From NCBI GenBank assembly GCA_003134785.1, contig PLCN01000014.1, positions 124,001 to 188,000 of the forward strand: 64,000 nucleotides of DNA, in the 5' to 3' direction. A program made the translations under genes and the position numbers. The notes under the pieces were generated by a model that saw only the letters and a list, made by a program, of their open reading frames with translations, did not search any database and was not told where the DNA came from. The stretch comes from Spartobacteria bacterium (lineage in GTDB: Bacteria > Verrucomicrobiota > Verrucomicrobiia > Chthoniobacterales > UBA10450). Of this stretch, positions 18,990-23,395 are shown in pieces (the stretch's first letter is position 1; every line of letters begins with the position of its first letter).

Positions 18990-20693
18990 GTGGAGAGACG
19001 CTGGATAATTGCTCAAGCTGAAGCGGAGCCGAATGCGGAAATAGCCTGGGCGGGAATCTGCGACATGCCCTGCATCCTCGCATTGCTCAAGCGCAAAGGC
19101 TTCGCAAGCGCTGATGACGTGACCGCTTTCCTGCAGCCGCGCCTCAGCTCCCTCAGCGACCCCTTTCTCCTGCCAAACATGGCTGCTGCCGTGACCCGCA
19201 TTCTCCGTGCGATTGATAACCGCGACCGCATCGTGCTTTTCGGCGACTACGATGTTGATGGCGTGACTTCGCTCGCGCTGTTGTCAGAAATGCTCCGCAG
19301 TTACGGCGTCGCGCCGGAATTATTTTTGCCGCTACGGATGGAGGAAGGCTACGGCATGAGCCCGGAAAGCGTTGACCGTTGCTGCGAGCAGCATCATCCG
19401 CAACTCCTGATCGCCGTCGATTGCGGCACGTCTTCGATCGATGAAATCGCCGAGTTAAAACGCCGGGGCGTCGATGTCATTGTGCTCGATCATCACGAGC
19501 CAAAATCCGCCTTGCCCGATTGCGTGGCCGTGGTGAATCCAAAAGCCGAAACCGGTTGCGCGTTTCACTATCTCTGCAGCGTCGGAATCGTTTTCAAAGT
19601 CTGCCACGCTCTGCTCAAGACGCGGCCCTCGCCGAAATTCGATTTGAAGGCAAACCTCGATCTCGTCGCGCTGGGAACCGTCGCGGACATCGTCCCGTTG
19701 CAGAACGAGAATCGCATTTTCGTTCAGCGTGGAATCGCGGAAATCGCGAGATCCAAACGTCCCGGCATTCGGAAACTAATGGAAGTCGCTGCGGTGCGGT
19801 CGCCCGTCGCGGCCGAGGACATCGCCTTTCGTCTCGGTCCGCGTCTCAATGCGGCGGGACGGCTCGCCACGGCGGAGAAGGCCTTGCGGCTCCTGGTTAC
19901 GCAGGATGAAACAGAAGCGACAGAATTGGCGGGACTGCTGGACGCGCAGAATCGAGAACGGCAGGCAGTCGAGAAGAAGATCTTCAACGAAGCGGAAGAA
20001 AACTTGGCGAAGGTTTTCGATCCGAACCGCGATGCCGCCATCGTCGTTGGGGCACGCGGTTGGCATCCGGGAGTGCTTGGGATTGTTGCCTCGCGTGTCG
20101 CGCGAAAATATCATCGGCCCGCGATCGTCGTGGGCTTCGATTCCGGCGGCCTTGGAAAAGGGAGCGGTCGAAGCATCGAGGGCTTATCGTTGGTCGAGGG
20201 ATTAGACCATTGCAAGAAATGGCTGGAAAAATTTGGCGGTCACGAAATGGCGGCGGGTCTGACCGTGCGCGAAGAAAACTTTGCTGGATTCACCGATGCG
20301 TTCCGCAAGGCCGCGCGTGAGCTGCTGTCAGACGAAAACCTTCAGGCGCGGCTCCATCTCGATCACGAACTTGCCTTCTCCGAACTCAATGGTGACTTGC
20401 TGCGTTGGCATCAGGCGCTGCAACCGTTTGGCAGCGGCAATCTGCAACCGATGTTCTTCGCGCGCGGAGTCGAGCCGGCCGTCGAGCCGCAAATTCTGAA
20501 GGAGAAACATCTGGTTCTGCGCCTCCGGCAGAAAAACCATTTTCGACGCGCAATTTTTTTTGATGGCGCTTCGACGCCGTTGCCTTCGTCTCCGTGGGAC
20601 ATGGCGTTCCGGCTCAACGCGGACGAATACGAAGGCGAAACACGGTTGCAGATTCACGTTGAGGCGTTGCGCGCAGCAGCGCCGCTCGAATGA
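18990..20693 (+). CDS. recJ: Single-stranded-DNA-specific exonuclease RecJ
   Basis: 5'-3' ssDNA exonuclease of recombination and mismatch repair. 567 residues from GTG 18990 (VERRWIIAQ). The DHH superfamily motifs are DYDVDGVTS (from D86), VDCGTSS, LDHHEP (DHH 167-169) and the DHHA1 segment GGHEMAAGLTV. Longer in-frame readings upstream lie over the DUF72 gene and are not credible. The stop overlaps recG by ATGA, so the two repair genes are coupled. Confidence 0.95.
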   Translation: MERRWIIAQAEAEPNAEIAWAGICDMPCILALLKRKGFASADDVTAFLQPRLSSLSDPFLLPNMAAAVTRILRAIDNRDRIVLFGDYDVDGVTSLALLSEMLRSYGVAPELFLPLRMEEGYGMSPESVDRCCEQHHPQLLIAVDCGTSSIDEIAELKRRGVDVIVLDHHEPKSALPDCVAVVNPKAETGCAFHYLCSVGIVFKVCHALLKTRPSPKFDLKANLDLVALGTVADIVPLQNENRIFVQRGIAEIARSKRPGIRKLMEVAAVRSPVAAEDIAFRLGPRLNAAGRLATAEKALRLLVTQDETEATELAGLLDAQNRERQAVEKKIFNEAEENLAKVFDPNRDAAIVVGARGWHPGVLGIVASRVARKYHRPAIVVGFDSGGLGKGSGRSIEGLSLVEGLDHCKKWLEKFGGHEMAAGLTVREENFAGFTDAFRKAARELLSDENLQARLHLDHELAFSELNGDLLRWHQALQPFGSGNLQPMFFARGVEPAVEPQILKEKHLVLRLRQKNHFRRAIFFDGASTPLPSSPWDMAFRLNADEYEGETRLQIHVEALRAAAPLE

Positions 20694-23395
20694 TTTCACC
20701 CTCGCAATTGCTCGCCGAGCTGGACTGGATTCCGCGCCCGAAGTTAACGGCATTGCGCCGGTTCGGCATCGAAATTGTTGAAGACCTGCTCACTCATTTC
20801 CCGCGGCGATATGAGGACCGCACCGAGTTCCCCGGTTTCCCGCGCCAGGAGAGCGATGTGCCGATTTGTCTTTGTGGCGAAGTGACGAAAACGCAGCTGC
20901 GTCGTTTCGGCGGCTGGAAAAAAATCTTCGAAGCCACTTTACAAGAATCGGATGCGAACGCGTTGAGCCAGCCGCTGGTCCTGCGCTGGTTCAATCTCCA
21001 TTACGTGCAAAAAATGATCGCGACCGGCCAGCGGCTCATTGTTTTCGGAAAGCCGCGGCTCCGCGGCCAGCGGCTTTGCATGGAGCACCCGGAGTTTGAA
21101 GTGATCGAAAACGACGAGGAAATCTCGATTCACTTTCGTCGGATCACTCCGATTTATCCGGCGACCGAAGGACTGTCGCAGCGAGCCTTTCGCGGATTGA
21201 TCCATCGGGCGCTGGAAGAGCTGGACGAGACTTCGATCGAAACAGCGCTACCTCGGAACGTGAATCTGGGTGAGCGAATTCACGCCTTGCATGAAATTCA
21301 TTTTCCCTCGACCCAGGCGGAACTCGAGGCGGCTCGCGAACATCTCGTCTTCTCCGAATTCTTCGCCATGCAGATGTTGATCGCGTCGCGGCGATCCACG
21401 GCTTCGTTGCGGAGCGGACAGGCGCATTGCGGGTCAGGAGAATTGCTCGAGAAATTTCTGCGGGGGCTCGCGTTCGATTTGACCGACGCGCAGACGCGCG
21501 TGATCGACGAGCTACGCCGCGATCTTGCGAGCCGGCATCCGATGAACCGTTTGCTGCAAGGCGATGTCGGCTCCGGCAAGACCGTGGTCGCGATTGCCAC
21601 GATGCTGCTTGCAGTGGAAGCCGGTTTCCAAGCCGCGCTCATGGCGCCGACACAGATCCTGGCCGAACAACATTACGCCGTGTTGTGCCGCTGGCTCGAA
21701 CCGCAGGGTGTGCGCTTGGCCTTGCGCACCGCCGCGCGCCGGGAGAACAACGCTCCGCTACCGCTTTTCGATCAACCGCGGAAACAAGAGCTGGGGAGCG
21801 CAGGCTGCCAGCCTGCAGTATCCGGCAGCCTGCCGGACACATCTTCGGGCCTAAGCGGGACCCGCTATCGTCGCCGGCTCCTTCCCCACTTCGAACGACC
21901 GTGGGCCAAATATATGATCACCGTCACCGCGCGAAATCACCGCATCCTATCTGATAAGGCCCGCAACGTAGTGCTCGAGTCGGTGCTTCGCTGGAAGGAT
22001 CACCGCTACGAACTCTACGCGGCATGTGTGATGCCGGATCACTTGCACCTCTTAATTGAGCCGATGGTCGAACGTGAGGACGATTCTGGAACGCCGGTTT
22101 TCTTTTCGCTCACAAAAATTCTGCATAGCATCAAATCGTTTACCGCCAACCGAATCAACAAGGTCGAGAACAAGAGCGGAATCGTATGGGAGACCGAATC
22201 GTTCGATCGTGTCATTCGCTCGGAAAGCGATCTGCAGGAAAAGTTCCAATATATTACTCGGAATCCTTGGGACGCGGGTGTTGTGAAACCCGGAGCGGAG
22301 TATTCGTGGGTTTGGTGGCCGGAGATGGAGCCGGAGGCGCGGCTTTCAAGGAATGCGCCGCCAGACTTCGCGGCAGGCTGCCGCGAAGGGCAGGCTGGCA
22401 GCCTGCGCTCCCCAGAAAAAGACACACCGCACATCATTATCGGGACGCACGCTCTCCTTTACGAAGGCGTTTCGTTCGAGAATCTGGGAGTCGTGGTGAT
22501 CGATGAGCAGCATAAGTTTGGGGTGTCGCAGAGGGCCCGGCTCACAGCGCGCGAGCCGGCGCCGGATGTCCTGGTGATGACCGCGACGCCGATTCCGCGC
22601 ACGCTCACGATGACTGTCTACGGCGATCTCGATGTGTCGGTGATCGATGAGATGCCTGCGGATCGCGGCAAAATCATCACGGCGGTGCGCGATCAATCGA
22701 AGCTCGGCGAAGTGCTGACCTTCATCCGGAGACAACTCGAAGCGGGACGGCAGGCATACGTCGTCTATCCGCTGATCGATGAGAGCGAGAAGCTCGACGT
22801 CAAAGCCGCAGCCGCAGAGTTCGAAACGTGGCAGGAACGCTTGCGGCCGTTTCGCTGTGAGTTGTTGCATGGCCGCATTCCCGCGCCGGAAAAGCAATCG
22901 ATCATGGAGCGCTTCCGTCGCGGAGATACGAGCGCGCTCATCAGCACGACTGTGATTGAAGTCGGCGTCGATGTTCCCAACGCGACGATCATGTTGATCG
23001 AGAACGCGGAACGCTTCGGGCTCGCGCAACTGCATCAGCTTCGCGGTCGAATCGGACGGGGCGAACACAAATCGTACTGCATTCTTTTGAGCGAGGAAAA
23101 ATCGCCCGAGACCGTGGCCAAGCTGGCGGTGCTCGAGAGAACGAGCGATGGCTTCGAGGTCGCGGAAGCGGATTGGGATCTGCGCGGCCCGGGCGATCTT
23201 CTCGGAACTGCGCAGAGCGGTTTGCCGGCGTTGAAGCTGGGAGATCTGAAGAAGGACGCGGCGGTCATGCGTCGGGCGCGGGCGGCCGCCACTGCAATCA
23301 TGGAAGCCGATCCGGAACTCAAAAGGCCCGAGAATCAACGTTTTCGGAGATTGATTGTCGAAGAGCGGGGACGTACGTTCTCGAACGTTAGCTAA
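20690..23395 (+). CDS. recG: ATP-dependent DNA helicase RecG carrying an in-frame RAYT transposase insertion
   Basis: RecG remodels stalled replication forks. The frame encodes 901 residues. Residues 1 to about 367 are RecG wedge and helicase (Walker A GDVGSGKT from about 291, motif Ia MAPTQILAEQHY). Residues about 368-575 are a foreign block containing a Y1/HUH transposase. Residues about 576-901 resume RecG (IIIGTHALLYEG, DEQH at 605-608, ATPIPRTLT, then QLRGRIGRG). Removing the block leaves about 694 residues, the usual RecG length. No stop or frameshift is seen at either junction. Whether the fusion is functional, processed or inactive cannot be told from sequence. It overlaps recJ (ATGA) and the HtrA gene (TAATG). 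Confidence 0.93.
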   Translation: MISPSQLLAELDWIPRPKLTALRRFGIEIVEDLLTHFPRRYEDRTEFPGFPRQESDVPICLCGEVTKTQLRRFGGWKKIFEATLQESDANALSQPLVLRWFNLHYVQKMIATGQRLIVFGKPRLRGQRLCMEHPEFEVIENDEEISIHFRRITPIYPATEGLSQRAFRGLIHRALEELDETSIETALPRNVNLGERIHALHEIHFPSTQAELEAAREHLVFSEFFAMQMLIASRRSTASLRSGQAHCGSGELLEKFLRGLAFDLTDAQTRVIDELRRDLASRHPMNRLLQGDVGSGKTVVAIATMLLAVEAGFQAALMAPTQILAEQHYAVLCRWLEPQGVRLALRTAARRENNAPLPLFDQPRKQELGSAGCQPAVSGSLPDTSSGLSGTRYRRRLLPHFERPWAKYMITVTARNHRILSDKARNVVLESVLRWKDHRYELYAACVMPDHLHLLIEPMVEREDDSGTPVFFSLTKILHSIKSFTANRINKVENKSGIVWETESFDRVIRSESDLQEKFQYITRNPWDAGVVKPGAEYSWVWWPEMEPEARLSRNAPPDFAAGCREGQAGSLRSPEKDTPHIIIGTHALLYEGVSFENLGVVVIDEQHKFGVSQRARLTAREPAPDVLVMTATPIPRTLTMTVYGDLDVSVIDEMPADRGKIITAVRDQSKLGEVLTFIRRQLEAGRQAYVVYPLIDESEKLDVKAAAAEFETWQERLRPFRCELLHGRIPAPEKQSIMERFRRGDTSALISTTVIEVGVDVPNATIMLIENAERFGLAQLHQLRGRIGRGEHKSYCILLSEEKSPETVAKLAVLERTSDGFEVAEADWDLRGPGDLLGTAQSGLPALKLGDLKKDAAVMRRARAAATAIMEADPELKRPENQRFRRLIVEERGRTFSNVS
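21791..21836. repeat. Left palindrome pair of the recG-borne RAYT element
   Basis: GCAGGCTGCCAGCCTGC (inside 21791-21816) and CCGGCAGCCTGCCGG (21822-21836) are adjacent near-palindromes, a REP/BIME-like arrangement. The outer one is the exact inverse of the right terminus. Confidence 0.85.
22366..22415. repeat. Right palindrome pair of the recG-borne RAYT element
   Basis: CTTCGCGGCAG-G-CTGCCGCGAAG at 22366-22388 is an 11-base perfect stem. It is followed at 22390-22415 by the inverse of the left terminus. Both are translated as part of the RecG frame. Confidence 0.85.

Follow-up and report, generated by a model that had tools for sequence, protein, structure and literature searches.

Introduction

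RAYTs, REPINs, TIRYTs and the short in-frame REPs and RPEs are already known (PMC3733652, PMC6006769, PMC8049555). The literature presents RAYTs as domesticated single-copy genes that are inherited vertically, and the persistence of genes that are expressed and yet hardly move calls for an explanation. In Pseudomonas and E. coli, the RAYT (TnpA-REP) is a single-tyrosine transposase with HUH and Y...NP motifs, and its REPINs have inverted ends formed by tagged hairpins and short non-autonomous copies lying mainly outside genes. The element described here, located in a stretch of 64,000 nucleotides from a Spartobacteria bacterium of the Verrucomicrobiota (the window, contig PLCN01000014.1), shares all of these features. 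It differs in that the RAYTs described so far stand alone as single-copy genes, whereas here the transposase mostly has neither an ATG nor a stop of its own and is read within a host enzyme.

The TIRYTs, or TIRtrons (Di Nocera 2013, PMC3733652), mostly correspond to TnpA-REP subclass 2.1 (Quentin 2018, PMC6006769). As in the present case, a RAYT-like transposase lies between long terminal inverted repeats starting with GGGG, and some genomes contain families of solo copies. The sequence GGGGAGCG of the window agrees with the TIRYT consensus GGGG[AT][CG]A[CG] at 7 of 8 positions, and the repeats here are 26 bp long; TIRYTs, however, are described as separate genes.

The in-frame REPs and the RPEs of Rickettsia are likewise palindromic mobile sequences translated within functional genes, often those of repair proteins and tRNA synthetases, but they are short non-autonomous inserts of 20–82 aa, whereas here the entire transposase-bearing element is inserted. 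The richest known case of intragenic GTAG repeats is that of O. terrae, a member of the Verrucomicrobia (Di Nocera 2013, PMC3733652). Inteins are also selfish in-frame residents of conserved housekeeping genes; in contrast to them, the present elements occupy tolerant variable loops and not active sites, and carry an HUH transposase and not a homing endonuclease.

What appears to be new here is that whole RAYT units are habitual in-frame residents of housekeeping genes, of which we found no description in the open-licence PMC texts searched; a large survey of the RAYT family discarded long fusion proteins. We consider it likely that the element belongs to an autonomous REP-type RAYT lineage, flanked by terminal inverted repeats, which is specialised to live in-frame inside host protein genes and mobilises solo copies elsewhere.

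Organisation of the recG-borne element

The coordinates of the features are collected in Table 1. The whole inserted segment (21791–22415) reads in the recG frame, giving a single ORF in which the RecG equivalog models NF008168 and TIGR00643 score above cut-off in two stretches, with Y1_Tnp and REP_Tyr_transpos between them. The RecG helicase motifs GDVGSGKT, DEQH, TATPIPRT and QLRGRIGRG, as read from the translation, are intact.

Table 1. Features of the recG gene and its in-frame element (positions in the window).
Feature	Position	Strand	Details
recG ORF, 901 aa, reading in-frame through the RAYT element	20690..23395	+	single ORF; RecG and RAYT families recognised
RecG N-terminal portion (wedge domain, Walker A, up to the variable loop)	20690..21790	+	
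Inserted element with terminal inverted repeats	21791..22415	+	625 bp; GGGG...CCCC core 21793-22413 = 621 bp
Left terminal inverted repeat, 26 bp	21791..21816	+	CTGGGGAGC plus hairpin 21800-21816; encodes LGSAGCQPA
Left inner hairpin (CCGGCAGCCTGCCGG)	21821..21837	+	palindrome itself 21822-21836
RAYT (Y1/HUH tyrosine transposase) domain	21890..22309	+	residues 401-540 of the fused ORF; NCBIfam NF047646
HUH of the RAYT	22040-22048	+	H451, H453
Catalytic Tyr 521 of the RAYT	22250-22252	+	
Right inner hairpin, 11-bp stem	22366..22388	+	stem arms 22366-22376 / 22378-22388
Right terminal inverted repeat, 26 bp	22390..22415	+	hairpin 22390-22406 then GCTCCCCAG; encodes QAGSLRSP
RecG C-terminal portion (DEQH motif onward, Helicase_C, RecG domain 3)	22416..23395	+	

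An earlier note, made from the sequence alone, had taken the insert for a RAYT, and this identity is borne out by Pfam Y1_Tnp, by NCBIfam NF047646 (REP_Tyr_transpos) and by the nearest solved structure, 4ER8 (TnpA-REP), which was the top PDB match in a fold search with the RAYT core. The NF047646 score of the window RAYT is 72.6 bits, below the 80-bit cut-off of the model (the copy in rdgB reaches 87 bits); the HUH motif and the Y-x3-NP signature are present as HLH and YITRNP. In the AlphaFold model, the RAYT core is predicted confidently (pLDDT mostly >90), and the termini encoded by the inverted repeats are disordered, as would be expected of linkers; the model of the entire fusion is weak (mean pLDDT 63.7, 12 sequences), and only the core and the disordered linkers were used from it. 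Subclass 2.1 of TnpA-REP has a C-terminal HTH domain, whereas family search and model gave no such extension in the window RAYT, the core of ~150 aa being followed by a disordered repeat-encoded tail.

The ends are arranged as the same note had described them. The 26-bp terminal repeats are exact inverses, a second palindrome lies inside each of them (CCGGCAGCCTGCCGG on the left, the 11-bp stem on the right), the distance from GGGG to CCCC is divisible by three, and no target duplication is visible at the recG element. A repeat search lengthens the arms to 45 nt at 89% identity, and a 20-mer of the end, at ≤3 mismatches, was found twice in the window against 0.02 occurrences expected by chance. 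As single-stranded DNA, each end folds into a pair of successive hairpins, leaving CTGGGGAGC or its complement unpaired on the outer side (folding z of −2.8 and −3.9 for the two ends). The tag beside the hairpin is GGGGAGC in the window element and GGGTAGC in relatives of type B, where the end types of recG-borne copies are designated A (CTGGGGAGCGCAGGCTGCCAGCCTGC, that of the window) and B (GGGTAGCGCACGCGTCTCGCGTG). The GTAG tetranucleotide, a known REP tag, is not present beside the hairpins of the window element, but GTAG-tagged REPs are only one described type.

Complementarity of the ends runs 2–5 bp beyond GGGG/CCCC in the window element and in solo copies, and this extension differs among the recG copies (CT..AG, TT..AA, ATTC..GAAT, CTCC..GGAG).

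In-frame residence among relatives

The genome from which the window comes (G000) has three related RAYTs, in recG, metH (contig C15) and sua5 (C23), and all three are in-frame. A search of 39 genomes of relatives, most of the genomes compared being MAGs, gave matches at E<1e-45 within frames of ~810–1513 aa, with one exception of 220 aa, whereas the weakest matches in the same genomes, which are ordinary RAYTs, mostly have frames of 110–300 aa. As read from their sequences, these frames belong to recG, metH (two sites), alaS and thrS; those of a second clade belong to carB, valS, sua5 and clpB. Among named genomes of Chthoniobacterales and other Verrucomicrobiota, which partly overlap the 39-genome set, all 25 matches at E<1e-50 are in-frame in recG, alaS (two sites), thrS or metH; the next match, in Phycisphaerales, is 38% identical and lies in-frame in rdgB.

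A sample of the phylum gave the same picture for close matches, 9 of 9 being in frames of 730–1513 aa (three of these loci were already known). About 46 of the 147 weaker matches listed (hand count) lie in frames longer than 500 aa, some of which may be spurious in GC-rich DNA, with leuS, valS, nspC and hsdR among the hosts. In the control, one of ~155 ordinary Y1_Tnp matches listed in the phylum lies in a frame longer than 400 aa; almost all ordinary Y1 transposases of the phylum thus stand alone.

In the RAYT tree, clade 1 (SH-aLRT 99) comprises 54 rows, of which 53 are in-frame within recG, metH, alaS, thrS or rdgB. In the only standalone member (L129), the catalytic Tyr is replaced by Ser. 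The second clade is also often in-frame, in carB, valS, leuS, sua5, clpB and other genes. Because of the 53 in-frame members of clade 1, in-frame placement is, as judged from these sequences, the rule for the lineage and not an accident of the window copy. An artefact of assembly or binning could be suspected with so many MAGs, but the same architecture recurs in dozens of independent assemblies, in several hosts and in several orders, and we regard such an origin as extremely improbable.

Some of these loci have features of their own. The metH copy of the window's genome (G000:C15:5346-9887, L038) is 53% identical, sits between the homocysteine and pterin domains and has its own pair of ends; the same gene contains two short in-frame repeat inserts (LGSARASRAGDGASPSR... 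and SGTGFQPVINQDPGKMPVPQ). The in-frame RAYT of sua5 (YrdC family; G000:C23:47937-48233, L033/L039) goes with a different palindrome family (GFQPM.../GFQPV...), which is common to G020 (L137). The single metH gene of G011 (L120) carries two in-frame RAYTs at two different linkers.

Translation and selection

In 50 of the 54 clade 1 copies, the stretch from the left end to the conserved LPH motif contains no ATG, and in 18 of the 54 it contains no ATG, GTG or TTG; on this basis, the RAYT appears to be made through translation of the host gene and to depend on it. The host frame also continues through the far end of most in-frame copies. The lengths of A-type elements (567, 597, 612, 615 and 621) differ by multiples of three, as do those of the B and C types (614 and 617, composite copies excepted), although copies related by descent do not count as independent in this comparison.

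The conserved frame bears on the possibility that the insert never reaches the mature protein, being taken out by RNA excision, by ribosome bypass over the stem of the 26-bp repeats or by protein splicing. Mobile bypass elements and inteins occur elsewhere, and the repeats could pair in mRNA, looping the RAYT out. An excised segment, however, need not be open, in-frame and constant modulo three, as the in-frame copies of clade 1 are; no protein-splicing family, of the kind that inteins carry, was recognised in the insert by Pfam and NCBIfam searches, and the insert sits in a fast-varying RecG loop where a domain can be tolerated. Since the frame is conserved, removal in RNA or by bypass is unlikely, and removal of any of these kinds seems to us very improbable.

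For the pairs computed, where computable, dN/dS of the RAYT was 0.055–0.12, several pairs being saturated at synonymous sites, and that of the recG flanks was mostly 0.05–0.09. These values indicate that the RAYT is under purifying selection close in strength to that on flanking recG. The catalytic Tyr is kept in 51 of the 54 clade 1 members. The HUH histidine is altered in L191, L216 and L231 and intact in L190, with the reservation that rows were extracted by a pattern requiring a near-canonical HUH, which biases HUH conservation in the set. Because L216 and L231 have broken catalytic motifs and yet an open frame, open frames can be held by host constraint alone.

Purifying selection on the RAYT would equally be expected of a domain useful to the host. 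Co-option of the RAYT could have provided RecG and the other enzymes with a new function, such as steering RecG to hairpin or branched DNA, with mobility being secondary; selection on it is about as strong as on recG, structured DNA is a substrate of both RecG and RAYTs, and RAYTs are regarded as domesticated (PMC8049555). Against this, the other clade 1 hosts (metH, alaS, thrS, rdgB) and those of the second clade (carB, valS, leuS, sua5, clpB) have no DNA function in common, the HUH or the Tyr is lost in certain copies, and occupancy of recG flips often among close relatives, with scars of loss. The lack of a common DNA role among the hosts makes it less likely that the fused domain serves the host, and we consider co-option improbable. 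What the data suggest is a mobile element translated as part of host proteins that it leaves undisrupted.

Solo copies and their link to the transposase type

The earlier note had named the genome-wide absence of further palindrome copies as the observation that would contradict it. This absence is not borne out: the genome of the window (4.39 Mb) contains 119 matches to the end sequence at ≤3 mismatches, two of which are the ends of the recG element itself, whereas the reversed control pattern has none. With double hairpins at both ends and this large dispersed solo population, the BIME-like layout proposed in that note holds.

In the genome stretches examined, 52 paired solo elements, most often 142 bp long, end in the same double hairpins. 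According to a rough codon-usage test, in which coding calls are approximate, 50 of the 52 are not in-frame in genes. The remaining two are in a DnaE-type polymerase gene (L040:4386-4487) and in uvrA (L080:13615-13769), names taken from the translations without a search behind them, and together with the similar repeats in metH they correspond to the in-frame REPs and RPEs. The solo population of this genome is REPIN-like. Its related RAYTs are 40–53% identical and the mobile population consists of the solo repeats, which differs from IS200/IS605, where near-identical transposase copies are expected within a genome.

The copy number of the ends is clearly associated with the RAYT type, but not exclusively. 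Genomes with an A-type recG RAYT have 18–119 copies of A-type ends (two closely similar search patterns), whereas genus mates without any recG RAYT have 0–7, and B-type genomes have 0–30 A-type and 13–95 B-type copies. Certain genomes without a matching recG RAYT still hold 8–30 copies of the pattern. In the genome of the window, B-like matches also number 44, which may reflect similar ends on its metH RAYT.

Genes of the uvrA and DnaE kinds have already been reported as hosts of in-frame REPs in other bacteria. In the inner hairpins of solo copies (e.g., L051, L057 and L061), the core GGCAGC(C/T)TGCC is kept and the outer stem arms co-vary as if compensatory.

Age of the window copy and turnover at the recG site

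From the exact identity of the terminal repeats, the earlier note had deduced recent movement or active maintenance. The first of these does not stand for the window copy: in two genus mates (G004 and G007), the element occupies the same position in recG with 75–79% protein identity and 0.67–0.75 synonymous differences per site, which is near saturation, and the window copy is therefore probably old. Active maintenance is the better fit, given the large solo population with matching ends.

The same data bear on the view that the element entered recG by a recent accidental in-frame transposition, its exact repeats being a sign of youth. The perfect 26-bp repeats, the 119 end copies, the empty recG in some genus mates (the element is missing in G002 and G005) and the fast turnover of occupancy within the family would all fit this. 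Shared occupancy with such synonymous divergence led us to reject recent insertion for the window copy, and an accidental origin also does not agree with 53 of 54 clade 1 members being in-frame; overall, we hold this explanation to be quite unlikely.

All recG copies occupy one RecG loop, between LPLF and xIIVGTHALL. On a tree of 58 recG genes, the filled and empty states change ~16 times, against a mean of 19.6 for shuffled labels. Close relatives can differ in whether the loop is filled or in the type of element that fills it, with A- and B-type elements in close sisters, and the recG-borne RAYTs split into several subclades with different ends. Scars are also seen in this loop: G003 keeps a peptide resembling the left end, two others keep end-encoded peptides, G060 has a short form without transposase, and G054 has an A-type element inside a B-type end. 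The changes of state and the scars together make it appear that the recG loop has been repeatedly colonised and vacated; horizontal exchange of recG alleles is also possible.

Simple vertical descent of one ancient recG insertion was rejected as a general account, because the ~16 changes are close to the value for shuffled labels and A and B types occur in close sisters. Known RAYTs are mainly vertical, whereas occupancy of recG turns over fast here, although some pairs co-diverge with recG, among them L192–L197 (dS of 0.55 for the RAYT vs 0.49 and 0.57 for recG). The loop is too divergent for the pre-insertion site and the exact junction to be read even between the close recG genes L203 (filled) and L164 (empty), which is why neither the junction nor a target duplication is fixed at the level of single bases.

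Proposed mechanism

We infer, as a working model, that the fusion is translated, RecG remains active and the element transposes, with hitch-hiking on host expression as the selective reason. Insertion, or else survival, would be confined to tolerant loops and linkers in large and important enzymes. Only one strand and frame would be allowed, the one in which the transposase ORF and both terminal repeats are free of stops, and an insertion in the wrong frame would break the host gene. Promoter, ribosome binding site, start and stop would all come from the host gene, and the transposase would be produced as an extra domain on disordered repeat-encoded linkers, with RecG still working. Owing to the importance of the host gene, loss that breaks the frame would be selected against, and in-frame deletions would leave scars.

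The transposase domain would recognise the double hairpin with the GGGG/GGGT-AGC tag at each end and copy short solo versions (REPINs) to intergenic sites, and these gene-less copies would spread through intergenic DNA. After insertion outside suitable genes, the transposase would be lost, of which L129 may be an example.

In its broadest form, to which we incline only slightly, the model describes a phylum-wide class of elements whose transposase exists only as an in-frame domain of housekeeping enzymes, with no start or stop of its own. Such elements would recolonise the same loops of RecG, MetH, AlaS, ThrS, CarB and ValS, would use the essentiality of the host for expression and retention, and would mobilise short intergenic copies. 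If this is true, an element made only within an important host protein would offer a concrete and directly testable mechanism of RAYT retention and expression.

The RecG, MetH, tRNA synthetase and CarB fusions also form a natural series of large tolerated domain insertions. The in-frame RAYTs of carB, which belong to the second clade (L139, L142, L143, L144, L147, L148, L149 and L151), apparently occupy one linker across several genera and families, and their rows group together in the RAYT tree (support 84).
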